From Candidatus Omnitrophota bacterium (lineage in GTDB: Bacteria; Omnitrophota; Gorgyraeia; 2-02-FULL-51-18): a stretch of 36,864 nucleotides of DNA. Below the pieces are notes generated by a model that saw only the letters and a list, made by a program, of their open reading frames with translations, was not told the DNA's origin and ran no database searches. The position numbers and the translations under genes were made by a program. Below, one piece after another: positions 11,821 through 19,213 of this stretch (the first letter of the stretch is position 1; each line of letters begins with the position of its first letter). Where the stretch lies: assembly GCA_945877765.1 (NCBI GenBank), contig CAMDWQ010000014.1:1-36864 (forward strand), given 5' to 3'.

Positions 11821-13023
11821 CTATACGGAGGCCAGATAATGCCCAAGCTTTGTTTTTTTAGTGTGAAGATATTTGCGGTTGTGCGGCCCAGCCTTGATCT
11901 GAATCGGCACGCGTTCTGTCACTTGCAGGCCATAGCCTTCAAGTCCCACAATTTTTTTGGGGTTATTGGTCAAGAGCCTAATTTTGCGTATCCCCAGATC
12001 CGCCAAAATTTGAGCGCCGACTCCATAATGGCGCAAATCCGCTTCAAACCCAAGTTTTTTATTGGCTTGTACCGTATCCAAGCCCTGGTCCTGCAAAGAA
12101 TAGGCTTTTAGTTTGTTTAGAAGGCCTATCCCGCGGCCTTCCTGTCTCATATAGAGAAGCACGCCTGCCTTTTCTTTGGCGATGCGCAAAAGCGCATGAT
12201 CCAGTTGCTCACCGCAGTCGCAACGGGCCGACCCGAGCACATCCCCGGTAAAACATTCAGAATGTACGCGCACAAGCACCGGCTTGGAAGGGTTGATTTC
12301 TCCCATCACCAGTGCCACGTGATAGTCACGATCCACGACCGATTCGTACGCCACCAGTTTAAAATCGCCGTATTCATTGGTAAGCCGTGTCTCCACCGCC
12401 TTAAACACTAATTTTTCTTTTTTTCTTCGGTACTCAATCAAATCGCGAATCGCACAAATTTTAAGATGGTGCTTTCGGGCAAATCGGTAAAGCTCCGGAG
12501 TGCGCGCCATCATTCCGTCATCGCTCATAATCTCGCAAATGGCTCCCGCCGGCCGCAAACCTGCTAAGCGAGCCAAATCGACACAGGCCTCCGTATGCCC
12601 GGCGCGCACCAAAACGCCGCCTTCGCGGGCTCGCAGCGGAAAAATATGGCCCGGCCTCACCAAATCATCTTTAGTTGTTTTGGGGTCAATCAACGTTTTC
12701 ACGGTACGCGAACGGTCGTAGGCTGAAATTCCTGTCGTAACCCCTCTCCGGGCATCGATCGAAACAGTCCAGGCCGTCTTGTATTCATCGCTATTATTGG
12801 CAACCATCAGATCAATTCCCAGCTTTACCAAGCGTTCGCCAGTCATTGGCGCGCAAATAATCCCGCGTCCATGCTTGGCCATGAAATTAATATTTTTGGG
12901 GGTGGCAAAATCAGCCGCCACCACAAGATCCCCTTCGTTTTCGCGGTCCGCATCATCAATAACGATAATGATTTTACCTTTTTTAAGATCCGCCAAGACT
13001 TCTGGAATGGTATTAAATTTCAT
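11821..13023 (-). CDS. ribBA: Bifunctional DHBP synthase / GTP cyclohydrolase II
   Basis: It supplies both precursors of riboflavin. The N-terminal domain (~1-200) makes 3,4-dihydroxy-2-butanone 4-phosphate ([42 protein letters not shown]). The C-terminal domain (~205-400) opens GTP, with the zinc Cys set [20 protein letters not shown], the catalytic RQEGRGIGL loop and GLDTVQAN. Its length of 400 is typical. Only 25 bases separate it from ftsA, holding GAGG before the ATG. That gap is too short for an FMN riboswitch, so rib expression seems driven by the dcw transcript. Confidence 0.97.
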
Positions 13024-13048
13024 TTTTTTTCCTCTAAATTAAAAAAGG

Positions 13049-14098
13049 TCAAAAGTAATCGCTTAAAAATGATCGGACTTTTGAACTCGCTAAAGTCAGC
13101 GTACTTCTTTCGGGTTTCAGAAAAACCGATCGCTTATCGCTTTCCGCCGCCAACCGAAGCAGTCCCACAATAGATGCATACTGAGAATTTTCTAAACGTG
13201 CTATCCCAACGCAAGCAGCACTGCGAACCGGAATCTCAAGGCCATTTTTTAGTTCCGCTAGGCGGCGGTCATCCCCGGCTAGCTCGCCGGTAAGAACCAC
13301 TTCAACAATTCCGGGGTGCTTTTTCTTAAACTCCTGACAGACCGCCAAGATCACATCAGACGCATAACCCCACTCCGAAGCGGTGGACAAAAGCGTCCTG
13401 TATTCCAAAATGCGGTTGTTGCTTAGTACTAATCCGTTTAAATAATCCTTGCTCAGATCCCAGATGATTCTCTCGCCTTGTCTTTCCTCGGCACTCAAAA
13501 CTCCGTACGCACTCGCTAGCCCTGAAAGGATCGGGATCGCCGACGAAAAACCGGCTCTGCGCATCAAACGAGCCCACACATCCACACGTTCGGCGCGCGC
13601 TAAAAGAAGGTGCGTTATAACATCCAATTGATGGCCAAAAATTCCTACCGGGTCCGTCACGGGATCTTTTTCGTCAACAATGTAGTCCACTTCACAGGCG
13701 TACACGATTTTTTTTTCAAAATTACCCGCAAGCCTTTGCGCTGCCAAAAGAGCTGCGCGGACATCCGACCCCTGGATTTCACCCTCCCCGTCCAGCATCT
13801 TGGAACCTACCGGCCACACGCTCTCTATTCGAGTATCATCAAGGTTGTAATAAAGCTTCTGAACCTGAACGCCGGCGGAATTTTCCGCTTTCCCGCTAGC
13901 ATCCACCACTGACTCGACCACATCGCCAATATGCACAATTTCGCCTTTGGCCATGCCTCGCAAGTCGCTTTCACCTGTACCCAAAATCCGAAGCTCGCCG
14001 CCAGCCTTCCTATCAGCGATGATGACAGTTACTTGCTCAGCGCCGATTTCCATCGCCGATAAAATTTTTACCGGAAATAGGGTGGGAAAATTTTTCAA
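13049..14098 (-). CDS. ftsA: Divergent FtsA-like cell division protein
   Basis: FtsA is the actin-like protein that anchors FtsZ to the membrane and recruits later division proteins. At 349 residues it is short (usual 400-420). FtsA marks remain: the 1C-domain segment DPVGIFGHQLDV (~148-159), GLASAYGVLS (~193-202), and an amphipathic C-terminal tail VRSFLSDYF (341-349). The ATPase motifs are eroded: MEIGAEQVTVIIAD for phosphate-1, WDLSKDYLNGLV (213-224) where DxGxGTTD is expected, and VVLTGELAGDD where an LTGGG loop is expected. Nucleotide binding is therefore doubtful. It overlaps ftsQ (ATGA) and is followed by ribBA; no ftsZ is in the window. Confidence 0.82.
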   Translation of the reverse strand: MKNFPTLFPVKILSAMEIGAEQVTVIIADRKAGGELRILGTGESDLRGMAKGEIVHIGDVVESVVDASGKAENSAGVQVQKLYYNLDDTRIESVWPVGSKMLDGEGEIQGSDVRAALLAAQRLAGNFEKKIVYACEVDYIVDEKDPVTDPVGIFGHQLDVITHLLLARAERVDVWARLMRRAGFSSAIPILSGLASAYGVLSAEERQGERIIWDLSKDYLNGLVLSNNRILEYRTLLSTASEWGYASDVILAVCQEFKKKHPGIVEVVLTGELAGDDRRLAELKNGLEIPVRSAACVGIARLENSQYASIVGLLRLAAESDKRSVFLKPERSTLTLASSKVRSFLSDYF

Positions 14099-14916
14099 CG
14101 AGGGCCGATCACCACATCGTCAAAACGAAGATCGATATAGGCAATTTTAGAAGAATCTAGGGGTACCCGTTTCAATGTTTGTTCCAAAATTTTGAATCTT
14201 TCCGCATAGTGAGCGCCGCCAAAACGAATTTCAATTTGACCGTCGACCAAAAGTAACAAATTATCGGGATCGCTGATATTGACGGCCGTCAACGCATGTC
14301 CGCGAAGAACACCCGACTGACGCATGACATCCGCAAGCTTAATCGCCCTTTCCATCACAGGATTTTTCAGTACCACGCCAACAAAAAGGCCCTCGGGAGG
14401 GGCAGACAAACCCTCCACTACGGTTAGATTTCGAAAAGGGGCAGCGCTTCCACCAGGCAGGAGCACCAAATCTTTATCCACCTGAATATAGCGTGATGAA
14501 AAAATAACTTGAGCGACAGGAGTCCGCCGCTTCAAAACAACCTCCAGCTCATTGGGCAGCACGCGGCGCACGCGCACTTCTTTGTATTCGGGATGCTTGC
14601 GTTTAATGACTTCTTGAACACCGACAAGATCCAAATGAATCAGGCTCTCCCCTTTTCTTAATTCACAGAAATCAAAAGCCTGCGCCTGGTTCATCGGACC
14701 GGCGTTGAGAATCCTTACTTGAGTTAACTGAAACGTCGAGGAATTGAGCGCATAGGCAATCACCGTCCCAAACAACAAACCCACGGCGGTGAGCGAGAGT
14801 ATGTAAGGAAGGGAGTAAAAAAATCCCTGTCGCAATCCGCTGAGCATTCTGACCGGCAGCACGGAGCTGCTGTTCTGTGCTTTTCTTCTGACCTTCAACT
14901 TGACTGGTTTTACCAT
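14095..14916 (-). CDS. ftsQ: Cell division protein FtsQ
   Basis: This bitopic membrane protein of the divisome forms the FtsQLB complex. A basic cytoplasmic tail (KPVKLKVRRKAQ) precedes one membrane helix (~35-58, LPYILSLTAVGLLFGTVIAY). The POTRA domain follows (FQLTQVRILNAGPM, KGESLIHLDLVGVQEVIK, VRRVLPNELEVVLKRRTPVA), then the beta domain ending with IAYIDLRFDDVVIGPR. It has 273 residues, the usual size. Its start overlaps the murC-murB-ddl end by seven bases and its end overlaps ftsA. Its place between ddl and ftsA is the classical dcw position. Confidence 0.92.
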   Translation of the reverse strand: MVKPVKLKVRRKAQNSSSVLPVRMLSGLRQGFFYSLPYILSLTAVGLLFGTVIAYALNSSTFQLTQVRILNAGPMNQAQAFDFCELRKGESLIHLDLVGVQEVIKRKHPEYKEVRVRRVLPNELEVVLKRRTPVAQVIFSSRYIQVDKDLVLLPGGSAAPFRNLTVVEGLSAPPEGLFVGVVLKNPVMERAIKLADVMRQSGVLRGHALTAVNISDPDNLLLLVDGQIEIRFGGAHYAERFKILEQTLKRVPLDSSKIAYIDLRFDDVVIGPR

Positions 14917-17900
14917 GATGGCTTTGCCTTTACCCTGTTTTCTGACAACTCTAGGATTCTAACACAAAGCTCTCCAAACTCTAACCCCGACGCCTCCGCC
15001 GCCTTCGGCAAAAGGCTTTTCGAAGTCAAGCCGGGAATCGTGTTGATTTCTAAAACATACGGCTGGCCATGCGCCAAAATAATATCAACGCGCCCCATCA
15101 CGCTGCAGCCCAGCGCGCGGTAGGCACGCAACGCCATATTTTCCACCACCCTAGCCTCCTCATCCGTCAGACGAGCAGGAAACTCATACTGCGTCTTAGG
15201 GCTTTTATACTTGGCCTCATAATCATAAAATTTGTCGACAGGGATCACTTCCACAATCGGCAGTGCCTTGTCTCCTAAAATTCCGACCGTTAGCTCGCGG
15301 CCGTAGATATGCTCCTCAACAAGCACCTTGTCAGAATAACGAAATGCTTCCGCGCAGGCTTTTGCAACATCTTCCTCTTTTAGAACAATCGAAATACCGA
15401 CGCTGGATCCTGCACTAGACGGCTTAATCACCACGGGAAAACGGCTAAAGATAAGCTTCGCAACCGACTGCATCGAATGCAATACCTGAAATTCAGGCAC
15501 CAAAATCCCCTCTTTTTTGAAAATGGTTTGCGCTTTTGATTTATCAAAAGCCATCTCGCTAGCCGCGGGCCCCGAACCCGTGTAAGCAATTCCTGCCTCT
15601 TCTAAAATTTTTTGCAACACTCCATCCTCGCCAAAAGTGCCATGCACCGCATTGAACACCATCGAAATATTTTGGCTTTTCAAATCCTCCACAAAATCAT
15701 CAACCGGATCCATTAGGATTACCTGACAACCCCTGGCTTTTAGCGCATCATAAACCGCCTTTCCTGAAATGAGCGATATTTCCCGCTCACAGGAAGGTCC
15801 TCCCGCAAGCACAGCGATCGCCCCCGGCCATGATTTAACAGGGTTTAGAGTGTCGTCCGAGATGTACTTGACTTCTGTCTCAAGCTCGATCCCGGACCTT
15901 TGCTTGACGACATCACGCACCCTGGAAATCAACTCAAGGACGTTGCTGGACGACGCGCCGCCCCGATTAATTAAATAGTTGGCGTGTTTTTCGGATATTT
16001 GTGCTTGATTGACGGCAAAACCTTTTAGACCCGCCTCATCAATCAACTTGCCGCTGGAACAACCAGGCAAATTAGGATTTTTAAAAAGACAGCCAGCGCT
16101 GGCGTGCTGCAGATCCTGGCTCTTGGTGCGGTAATCGCGGTATTCCTGAAGTTTTAGCTGCACGGCTTCTTTGCTGCTGGGTGGGAATGAAAACAAAGCC
16201 TCAACGATAATCCCCTCTTCGAGACCCGAATGGCGATAGCGAAAATTAATTTGGCTTTTTTTAAGAAAATGGGAGCGGCCATCAAAACCCAAAAATAGAA
16301 TTTCTTCCAGAAATTCATCCACCGACTGGCCGTGACTGCCGGCATTCATCGCCACTGCGCCGCCAATATTCCCCGGAATTCCGGACATAAATTCAAAACC
16401 GCCAAGCCCCTTCTCAAAACTGTATTGAATTAGCAGCGAGTTCATGACTCCGGCTCGAGCGAGCACCCGGTTCGCTCCGGGGCTATGAAGCTGTCGAAAG
16501 TAAGGCGCCCCCAGATGTATCACCACACCCCGCACCCCTTGGTCTGCAGCAAGAATATTGCTCCCGGCACCAAAAATGCGCACGTGCAATCCCCTGGCCC
16601 TAGATTCCCACAAGACACTCTTTAAATCTTCCATATCCTCTGGCTCTATCCAGTATTCGGCGGGACCGCCAATCTTAAGCGTCGTGTGCTTAGACAAAGG
16701 TTCTTCCAGAGCCACCTTCCCACGAATCCCGCGAAAAAAAGACAACTCTCGAGCCACTTGATACACATCACCGGCTCCCAGGGCAATGACCAGGTCCCCT
16801 GGCAGCATCTGACTACGAATCGCCTCTGTTACGAGTGCACGAGGCACGTAGCTGACATCCGCATGCCCCTGACGACGGACAGCGTCACAAACTTTTTGGG
16901 CAGAAATATTTTCCATTGGATCTTCATTCGCTGCATAAATATCCGTAATAAAAAGTTTATCAGCGTCACTAAAAGCGGTTGCAAAATCATCCAGAAGCGA
17001 CGCTGTGCGCGAATACCGATGCGGCTGAAAAACAGCAAAAATTCTTTTCTTTGAGAGCGCTCGGGCCGCGGCAAGCGTCTTTTGAATCTCTGTTGGGTGA
17101 TGAGCGTAATCATCCACGATCATCGTGACGGGGCTTTCGTATTGAATATCAAAACGCCGCTCGGCGCCCCTGTATTTTAAAAGCGCTTTTTGCACACTGG
17201 AAAAATCAACGCCGCAAAGGGAAACCGCCGCAATCGCGCCCAGAGCATTTAAAACATTGTGGCGCCCTAAGATCCTCAGTTGCACTTTCCCCAAACAAAC
17301 AGTGCCGCGCCATGCATTAAAAGAAACACCCCTCACTCCTTCCGGACACTCACTCACATCCGTGGCATAAAAATCGTTTGAGGAATTGAATCCGTATAAT
17401 ACCGCCGGGATGTCAGCCTCCTTGGCCAAGCGTAATACATTGGGGTCCTCCGCACATCCGACCCAGCGGCCGCCAGGCTTTAACCGCAAGACAAACTTTC
17501 GGTAGGCTTCTTCCATTTGATCAAATGTGCCGTAATGATCCAGGTGCTCTTTCTCAATATTGGTAATGATTTCAATGTCGGGGCTAAACTTAAGAAAAGA
17601 AGCGTCACTCTCGTCTGCCTCAATCACCATCTCTTTCCCTTGGCCCACACAGGCATTTCCACCCAAAAGATCTACCAAACCTCCGACTACCACCGAAGGG
17701 TCTCGCCCCGCCTCTCGTAAAATAAGGCCCACTAGAGCAGTGGTCGTTGTTTTTCCATGAGTCCCGCTGACGGCAATTGTAAATCGATCGAGACAAAGCG
17801 CTGCCAAAGCATCCGCCCGGTGAATAATTCGTACTCCCGCGCGCACCGCCTCCACCCGCTCCGGATGATCTTCACGAATGGAGGAAGAATAAACCACCAA

Positions 17901-18119
17901 CCCCGCTCCCTCGATATGAAGCGGATCATGGCCAATCAGCACTTTGGCTCCCAATTTTTCAAGATTGAGTAAAATCGGCGTCTTCTTCACATCGCTTCCC
18001 TGGACCGCATAGCCCAACGCCAGATAAATACGTGCGATACCGCTCATTCCAATCCCCCCCAATCCAATAAAATGGATCGGTTTTTGAGCGTTTCTGTTTT
18101 CTAAATCCACCCGGCGCAC
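14910..18119 (-). CDS. MurC-MurB-Ddl trifunctional fusion protein
   Basis: One 1069-residue frame holds three peptidoglycan enzymes. Residues ~13-460 are MurC (UDP-MurNAc:L-alanine ligase): HFIGLGGIGMSGIA, P-loop SGTHGKTTT (118-126), EADESDASFL, DDYAHHPTEI. Residues ~463-750 are MurB (UDP-enolpyruvyl-GlcNAc reductase, FAD): IFGAGSNILAADQGVRG, SGIPGNIGGAVAMNAG, and ASAGCLFKNP, with Cys677 where many MurBs have catalytic Ser. Residues ~766-1069 are Ddl (D-Ala-D-Ala ligase, ATP-grasp): LAGGPSCEREISLISG, VVIKPSSAGSSVGIS, YVLEINTIPGLTSKS. All active-site motifs are intact and the linkers are short, with no stop or frameshift. Two-part fusions (MurC-Ddl in Chlamydia, MurB-MurC in others) are known. 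It overlaps murG by 19 bases. Confidence 0.97.
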   Translation of the reverse strand: MRRVDLENRNAQKPIHFIGLGGIGMSGIARIYLALGYAVQGSDVKKTPILLNLEKLGAKVLIGHDPLHIEGAGLVVYSSSIREDHPERVEAVRAGVRIIHRADALAALCLDRFTIAVSGTHGKTTTTALVGLILREAGRDPSVVVGGLVDLLGGNACVGQGKEMVIEADESDASFLKFSPDIEIITNIEKEHLDHYGTFDQMEEAYRKFVLRLKPGGRWVGCAEDPNVLRLAKEADIPAVLYGFNSSNDFYATDVSECPEGVRGVSFNAWRGTVCLGKVQLRILGRHNVLNALGAIAAVSLCGVDFSSVQKALLKYRGAERRFDIQYESPVTMIVDDYAHHPTEIQKTLAAARALSKKRIFAVFQPHRYSRTASLLDDFATAFSDADKLFITDIYAANEDPMENISAQKVCDAVRRQGHADVSYVPRALVTEAIRSQMLPGDLVIALGAGDVYQVARELSFFRGIRGKVALEEPLSKHTTLKIGGPAEYWIEPEDMEDLKSVLWESRARGLHVRIFGAGSNILAADQGVRGVVIHLGAPYFRQLHSPGANRVLARAGVMNSLLIQYSFEKGLGGFEFMSGIPGNIGGAVAMNAGSHGQSVDEFLEEILFLGFDGRSHFLKKSQINFRYRHSGLEEGIIVEALFSFPPSSKEAVQLKLQEYRDYRTKSQDLQHASAGCLFKNPNLPGCSSGKLIDEAGLKGFAVNQAQISEKHANYLINRGGASSSNVLELISRVRDVVKQRSGIELETEVKYISDDTLNPVKSWPGAIAVLAGGPSCEREISLISGKAVYDALKARGCQVILMDPVDDFVEDLKSQNISMVFNAVHGTFGEDGVLQKILEEAGIAYTGSGPAASEMAFDKSKAQTIFKKEGILVPEFQVLHSMQSVAKLIFSRFPVVIKPSSAGSSVGISIVLKEEDVAKACAEAFRYSDKVLVEEHIYGRELTVGILGDKALPIVEVIPVDKFYDYEAKYKSPKTQYEFPARLTDEEARVVENMALRAYRALGCSVMGRVDIILAHGQPYVLEINTIPGLTSKSLLPKAAEASGLEFGELCVRILELSENRVKAKPSW

Positions 18120-19213
18120 TCCTCGATAAAAGTCATTAATTTTATTCTTGAGTTTAACGCCGCATTTATTAACGGCGAAACAATCGGCTTGTTTTTTTGT
18201 TGCATAGCTCTCTCCACAAAATCTTGAAAAATTGGCGCAAACATCACCGGCGACAAATCACTCTGATGAATAATCAGCGAGCGGCCATCTTCCACAAAAG
18301 CCTTTGCATTTAATAACTGATGCCCGCCGGCAAAGGGGTAGGGAACCAAAATGGCCGGCATTTTTTTCGCCTTGGCTTCCGCTAAAAAAGTAGCTCCCGC
18401 ACGCCCAACGGCAAAATCGGCCGCGCCATAAGCTAGCTCCATTCTTTCAAAAAAAGAAAAAGCGCGGCAAACAACCCCTTCCTTCATGCAGGTTTCTTCC
18501 GCCAGCGCCGTCGACATTTTTCCGGTCAGATGAACCACCTGAAGCAACGACTTCACCGATACGGGCACCTGGCTAAGCGCCTCCAAAAAAACGGTATTAA
18601 TAGATTCGGCTCCTTGGCTTCCTCCGAGCACCAACACCGTTACCTTGTTCGCCGAAAAACCAAAAAATCCAAGTGCCTCTTGGCGGCAATCACGATCGAT
18701 CGCAGCGCGGATTGGGTTCCCCGTCTCCCGCATATTGCGGTGAGGCGGCAAATATTTCCTAGTGTCCTCAAAACTCAAAGCCACCGCATCTGCCCACCGC
18801 GTCAAAACCTTATTGGCGAATCCCGGCATGACATTTTGTTCATGAATCATGGTTTTAATCCCTAAGCCCCTTGCCATGAGAATCATAGGAAAAGAAAAAT
18901 GGCCGCCAAAACCCACCACCACCGCAGGTTTTTCTTTCCTTAAAATCGTAAAGGCTTGATAAAAACCTTGCGCTAATTTTAACAGAAATACACCGTTGAA
19001 GAAAGACCGCGCACCTCGGAAAGGGGCGCTATCAATAGGGATTACTTTTTCTTGAGAGACCATGCGAAAAATGGCGTTTTCGATATCTTTGTTGCCGCAG
19101 ACATAGACTAGGCGCAAAGAAGGGTATTTTTTTTTGAGTTCCTCCGCGACGCTAAAGGCAGGAAAAATATGCCCCCCGGTTCCCCCGCAGGCCAGTATGA
19201 GGCAACGCTCCAT
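18101..19213 (-). CDS. murG: UDP-GlcNAc:lipid I N-acetylglucosaminyltransferase
   Basis: This peripheral inner-membrane GT28 enzyme turns lipid I into lipid II. The N-terminal glycine loop ACGGTGGHIFPAFSVAEEL and the second GFGGHFSFPMILMARGLG are the two acceptor-side G-loops. The donor domain has VLGGSQGAESIN and the UDP-GlcNAc site AVGRAGATFLAEAKAKKMPA with PYPFAGGHQLLNAKAF (usually RSGA and DHQ; here GRAGA and GHQ). It has 370 residues, close to normal. It follows ftsW after three bases and overlaps the fusion gene, so coupling along the operon is tight. Confidence 0.96.
   Translation of the reverse strand: MERCLILACGGTGGHIFPAFSVAEELKKKYPSLRLVYVCGNKDIENAIFRMVSQEKVIPIDSAPFRGARSFFNGVFLLKLAQGFYQAFTILRKEKPAVVVGFGGHFSFPMILMARGLGIKTMIHEQNVMPGFANKVLTRWADAVALSFEDTRKYLPPHRNMRETGNPIRAAIDRDCRQEALGFFGFSANKVTVLVLGGSQGAESINTVFLEALSQVPVSVKSLLQVVHLTGKMSTALAEETCMKEGVVCRAFSFFERMELAYGAADFAVGRAGATFLAEAKAKKMPAILVPYPFAGGHQLLNAKAFVEDGRSLIIHQSDLSPVMFAPIFQDFVERAMQQKNKPIVSPLINAALNSRIKLMTFIEECAGWI

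Follow-up and report, generated by a model that had tools for sequence, protein, structure and literature searches.

The window, a stretch of 36,864 nucleotides from a Candidatus Omnitrophota genome (1.65 Mb, 97.9% complete), carries on its minus strand a classical dcw cluster in the order mraW, an ftsL-like gene, ftsI/PBP, murE, murF, mraY, murD, ftsW, murG, a murC-murB-ddl fusion, ftsQ and ftsA. The fusion gene (14910..18119, minus strand) lies between murG (18101..19213, minus strand), which is directly upstream and overlaps its start, and an ftsQ-like gene (14095..14916, minus strand), which encodes an FtsQ/DivIB C-terminal domain, is directly downstream and overlaps its stop. The other dcw neighbours likewise have intact frames and mostly overlap or abut. 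As suggested earlier, the head-to-tail order of the three parts is the ancestral dcw gene order.

The minus-strand frame is uninterrupted from 14910 to 18119, while the plus strand is closed by stops throughout the same coordinates. Counted from GTG 18119 the longest open reading frame has 1069 codons for amino acids, the length given in the sequence-only reading. However, a Shine-Dalgarno-like GAGGAG (18119..18124, minus strand) lies 8 nt ahead of GTG 18110, so that translation probably starts at this second GTG and yields a protein of 1066 residues. The same reading did not name the strand. In the assembled sequence no in-frame stop or break separates MurC, MurB and Ddl. There is also no in-frame ATG, GTG or TTG between the C-terminus of MurB and the first strand of Ddl, and free Ddl is thus not obviously made.

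Domains were called with Pfam and NCBIfam profiles at their curated cut-offs, and all three exceed them, confirming a one-frame MurC-MurB-Ddl protein with a counterpart in a second genome (G010). MurC, the UDP-MurNAc:L-Ala ligase, occupies residues 15-459 (16743..18077, minus strand). It belongs to the TIGR01082 equivalog, with a full-length match (490 bits against a cut-off of 335, profile positions 2-448 of 449) that includes the Mur-ligase ATP-binding P-loop GTHGKTTTT; EADESD, DDYAHHPTEI and FQPHRYSRT are also present. MurB, the FAD-binding UDP-enolpyruvyl-GlcNAc reductase, follows at residues 464-755 (15855..16730, minus strand) and is a full-length member by both PRK13905 (302 bits versus 259) and TIGR00179 (219 versus 144.5). 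Ddl, an ATP-grasp D-Ala-D-Ala ligase, fills residues 766-1060 (14940..15824, minus strand), again as a full-length member (PRK01372, 350 bits versus 243). Its motifs SCERE, AGSSVG, YEAKY, GRVD and EINTIPGLT are recognizable, and alignment to DdlB (1iov) finds equivalents of the Glu, Ser, Tyr, Arg, Asp, Glu and Asn residues.

The assertion that all active-site motifs are intact is nearly right: the MurC motifs, the Ddl residues, and the catalytic Arg (YRHS) and Glu (LETEV) of MurB are kept, with a caveat for the catalytic Ser of MurB. In described MurBs, among them those of E. coli and S. aureus, a serine protonates the substrate. Here its site (SAGCLFKNP) is Cys677 (codon 16089..16091, minus strand), and this cysteine could serve as the general acid instead. 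The same position is Cys in 30 of the 33 other aligned MurBs, with Ser only in G039, G079 and G091. Since most MurBs of the phylum carry it, Cys677 is no consequence of the fusion. More generally, the motif SAGC[LMV]FKNP runs across most of the Omnitrophota (Ser in 3 of 34 aligned).

In sequence, each domain is matched nearly end to end by solved structures of MurC, MurB or Ddl, respectively. The AlphaFold model has three domains predicted with confidence (mean pLDDT 88.6); residues 753-759 of the linker fall below 50, and the pTM is 0.54, a low value that implies no defined mutual arrangement of the domains. The MurB-Ddl linker, ISDDTLNPVKSWP (15825..15863, minus strand), is predicted to be disordered and has no in-frame start codon.

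The protein is very probably a genuine trifunctional enzyme of peptidoglycan-precursor synthesis that arose in two steps, the sequence, its domains, their single copies, the two genomes and the frame relations being observed, and the activities, the uncleaved state and the exact mutational steps inferred. One mRNA frame would give a single chain in which short linkers connect three catalytic modules that fold independently. In this chain MurB would convert UDP-GlcNAc-enolpyruvate to UDP-MurNAc (with FAD and NADPH), MurC would add L-Ala to it, and Ddl would make the D-Ala-D-Ala used later by MurF. The MurB of the fusion is the only one in the genome, and its Ddl is the only clear D-Ala-D-Ala ligase (other ATP-grasp matches to the Ddl model are weak, with 47.9 and 27.9 bits versus 183). 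The cells would therefore rely on the fusion protein if they make peptidoglycan, and all three modules are presumably active. The likeliest effect of fusion would be fixed co-production, and the 1:1:1 stoichiometry proposed earlier holds only if the chain stays uncleaved. Three points count against this reading: the triple form is seen in two genomes only, one base less in a run of five G residues at the seam would restore a separate ddl, and the related Verrucomicrobium MurB/C fusion, despite complementing in vivo, gave no demonstrable MurB activity in vitro (PMC4803751).

Fusion states in the family were read from stop-to-stop open reading frames in 13 genomes. Among the readable members only the source genome and G010 have the triple fusion. 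G010 belongs to a different genus; its fusion is 56% identical to the first, lies on a 1.59-Mb contig and holds the only MurB of that genome. The common state of the family is a MurC-MurB fusion with a separate ddl, as in G002, G003, G004, G008, G009 and G012, and in G007, where the locus is cut by the contig. The architecture of G012 is also that of JAHFFL010000001.1 (Candidatus Omnitrophota bacterium isolate nzgw291, locus L073). G006 has the same arrangement with an in-frame TAG in MurC; in this otherwise intact gene (L036) the codon sits just ahead of VDDYAHHP and may be a sequencing error, a pseudogene mutation or a site of readthrough. G001 has MurC-MurB with the MurB stop visible. Its murB and ddl each lie at a contig end (L011 and L040), with about 80 similar bases on both, as if a repeat element had been inserted between them. 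In G005 murC, murB and ddl are all separate. This genome (L043) is nested among fused ones and its murC and murB frames are one base apart at GCCCTTTAA, which suggests a reversal or an indel error. The locus is absent from G011, and three order mates show no fusion.

The seam between MurB and Ddl bears on how the third enzyme was added. Where relatives keep the two genes unfused, these overlap, usually by the sequence ATGA, and their frames differ. The ddl gene is out of the murB frame in all nine readable unfused family mates and in both order mates that can be read (offset +2 in eight of the nine and in both order mates, +1 in G008). Loss of a stop codon between neighbours, the origin proposed in the sequence-only reading, can thus be part of the reconstruction, but as a sufficient cause of the MurB-Ddl joint it is rejected, because a frame-changing indel is needed as well. 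In the source genome the seam reads ...AAA TCA TGG CCG GGG GCG ATC... and contains an out-of-frame ATG (15831-15829), in the usual frame of ddl, followed by TGG and the G5 tract (15825-15821; the whole at 15821..15831, minus strand). With one G fewer a 306-residue Ddl beginning MAGAIAVLAGG would open at this ATG. The seam of G010, TTGGGGGCGG, has TTG and G5 and can be read in a similar way.

Most likely the fusion originated in two steps, with MurC-MurB first and Ddl later. In an Omnitrophota family whose murC, murB and ddl genes lie tightly overlapped in one operon, an in-frame MurC-MurB join, now the family norm, would have been followed by loss of the murB stop together with a net shift of frame where murB and ddl overlap. 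This shift was probably the gain of one base in the G tract, although the exact mutational steps are a reconstruction. In trees the two triple fusions stand apart with weak support, and an AU test does not reject their common grouping (p 0.232), so that either one event or two would agree with the data. A further reading, of rather low probability as a whole, is that Ddl was added twice independently in this family, each time by murB stop loss and the gain of one base in a G tract behind the former ddl start, that the block is a slip hot spot toggling between one, two and three proteins, and that the chain works as a small precursor-making assembly.

In the phylum the architecture is rare, as a survey of the kind proposed earlier shows. 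In an even sample of 384 Omnitrophota genomes, one match across all three domains occurs only in the two triple-fusion genomes. Open-frame values of 1050-1160 residues, which could be taken for many more triple fusions, were rejected as same-frame matches of separate genes joined together; in G014 the stop-to-stop frames are separate (455, 306 and 308 residues). When the open reading frames of a further 60 loci were checked, 51 had three separate genes, five MurC-Ddl, two MurC-MurB and two some other state. MurC-MurB fusions occur in Omnitrophota families f1, f30, f8, f38 and f17. Family f39 (L159, L177, L183, L187 and L194) has Chlamydia-like MurC-Ddl fusions of about 800 residues, and the sole MurB detected in each of these five genomes is on another contig. 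An alignment scan of named contigs from many phyla gave 80 loci (a single-protein query gave none), with no triple fusion among them; MurC-MurB appears there in Verrucomicrobiota, 'Ca. Obscuribacterium' (Elusimicrobiota at NCBI) and one Acidimicrobiales MAG. One phylum thus holds separate, MurC-MurB, MurC-Ddl and MurC-MurB-Ddl states side by side, which allows a comparative test of whether such fusions are adaptive or a side effect of gene overlap.

Why the enzymes are tethered can be explained in more than one way. Selection for channelling of UDP-MurNAc from MurB to MurC, or for a Mur multi-enzyme complex, is a possible but rather unlikely reason. These two enzymes catalyze consecutive steps, their fusion recurs in several Omnitrophota families as well as in the other phyla named above, and Mur complexes have been proposed (PMC6420597). 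However, the order of the chain, MurC and then MurB, is set by gene order; the non-consecutive pair MurC-Ddl recurs too; the model, with its low pTM, fixes no arrangement of the domains; and the MurC-MurB join has seemingly been lost or is absent in G005. The product of MurB is the substrate of MurC, while that of Ddl goes to MurF, a separate protein. D-Ala-D-Ala is therefore not expected to be channelled along the chain, and the earlier proposal, as far as it involves Ddl, finds no support, given also the predicted disorder of the MurB-Ddl linker. Channelling is conceivable only for the MurB to MurC pair.

It is less probable still that the chain is cut in its linkers into separate enzymes, fusion being only a convenience of translation. 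The disordered linker of the model could be accessible to proteases, but neither a protease site nor a precedent was found, and the authors of the work on Verrucomicrobium MurB/C concluded from complementation and a cleavage assay that this protein is probably active in fused form (PMC4803751). An assembly or sequencing artefact, in which one G too many in the G5 tract would join ddl to MurC-MurB spuriously, is very improbable: the Ddl frame that reopens with one G fewer and the separate ddl of all other readable family mates would fit it, but the same fusion is present in a different genus on a long contig, removal of one G still leaves MurB stopless at the seam for about 27 codons into ddl, unlike every relative, and the adjoining dcw genes have intact frames.

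The cluster around the fusion has a further peculiarity. At 11821-14098 the window contains ftsA and then ribBA, with no ftsZ there. With the PF00091 profile FtsZ was found in none of 79 relatives and none of 146 phylum genomes, the source genome included among those without it, and with TIGR00065 in none of 98 genomes, while 13 of 14 control genomes were positive. FtsZ is thus unseen in the sampled Omnitrophota, although ftsA, ftsQ, ftsW and ftsI are among the dcw genes that persist. In a 2016 study Omnitrophica OLB16 alone showed FtsZ, and whether two others truly lack it was left undecided (PMC5147048). By these profile searches the Omnitrophota look like a phylum that divides without FtsZ, possibly a larger observation than the fusion. 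At 349 residues the FtsA of the window (13049-14098) is short, and it scores 134 bits against an equivalog cut-off of 176, its match confined to positions 3-226 of a profile of 371; it may be a reduced form belonging to a lineage that lacks FtsZ.

Pairwise fusions of Mur enzymes are known, as the sequence-only reading stated. The first MurC-MurB fusion described, MurB/C of Verrucomicrobium spinosum, complements murB and murC mutants, although its MurB activity could not be shown in vitro (PMC4803751). This protein has 770 residues and is reported to be essential (PMC12283558). The other characterized kinds are chlamydial MurC-Ddl and the MurE-MurF of Bordetella and others (PMC6420597, PMC5814848, PMC12283558). 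In Chlamydia, Ddl activity is reported to depend on the fusion with MurC (cited in PMC4803751). The Mur fusions given in PMC6420597 and PMC4929429 are all pairs. No three-part MurC-MurB-Ddl protein was found in the open-access papers searched, which agrees with the earlier impression that a fusion of three in this order had not been described.

Each known system resembles part of the Omnitrophota protein. Verrucomicrobial MurB/C shares the uninterrupted chain with MurC N-terminal and MurB C-terminal, and is usually encoded in the dcw cluster with ddl adjoining; there ddl is separate, whereas the present chain carries an additional C-terminal Ddl. Chlamydial MurC-Ddl (NF011171/PRK14573) shares an N-terminal MurC and a C-terminal Ddl in one chain but has no MurB between them, and the present fusion falls outside that family (430 bits, with the equivalog cut-off at 1015). 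Bordetella MurE-MurF also joins adjacent dcw genes through a short linker (PMC6420597, PMC4929429) but consists of other enzymes and of two parts only. The MurC-MurB and MurC-Ddl fusions seen in Omnitrophota families come from the same phylum and the same operon, but these too are two-part. Natural fusions of Mur enzymes had joined two catalytic enzymes; the present one joins three, and its compactness would suit it to structural and kinetic studies of Mur complexes. Apparently undescribed and rare, it is a small step past the known double fusions.
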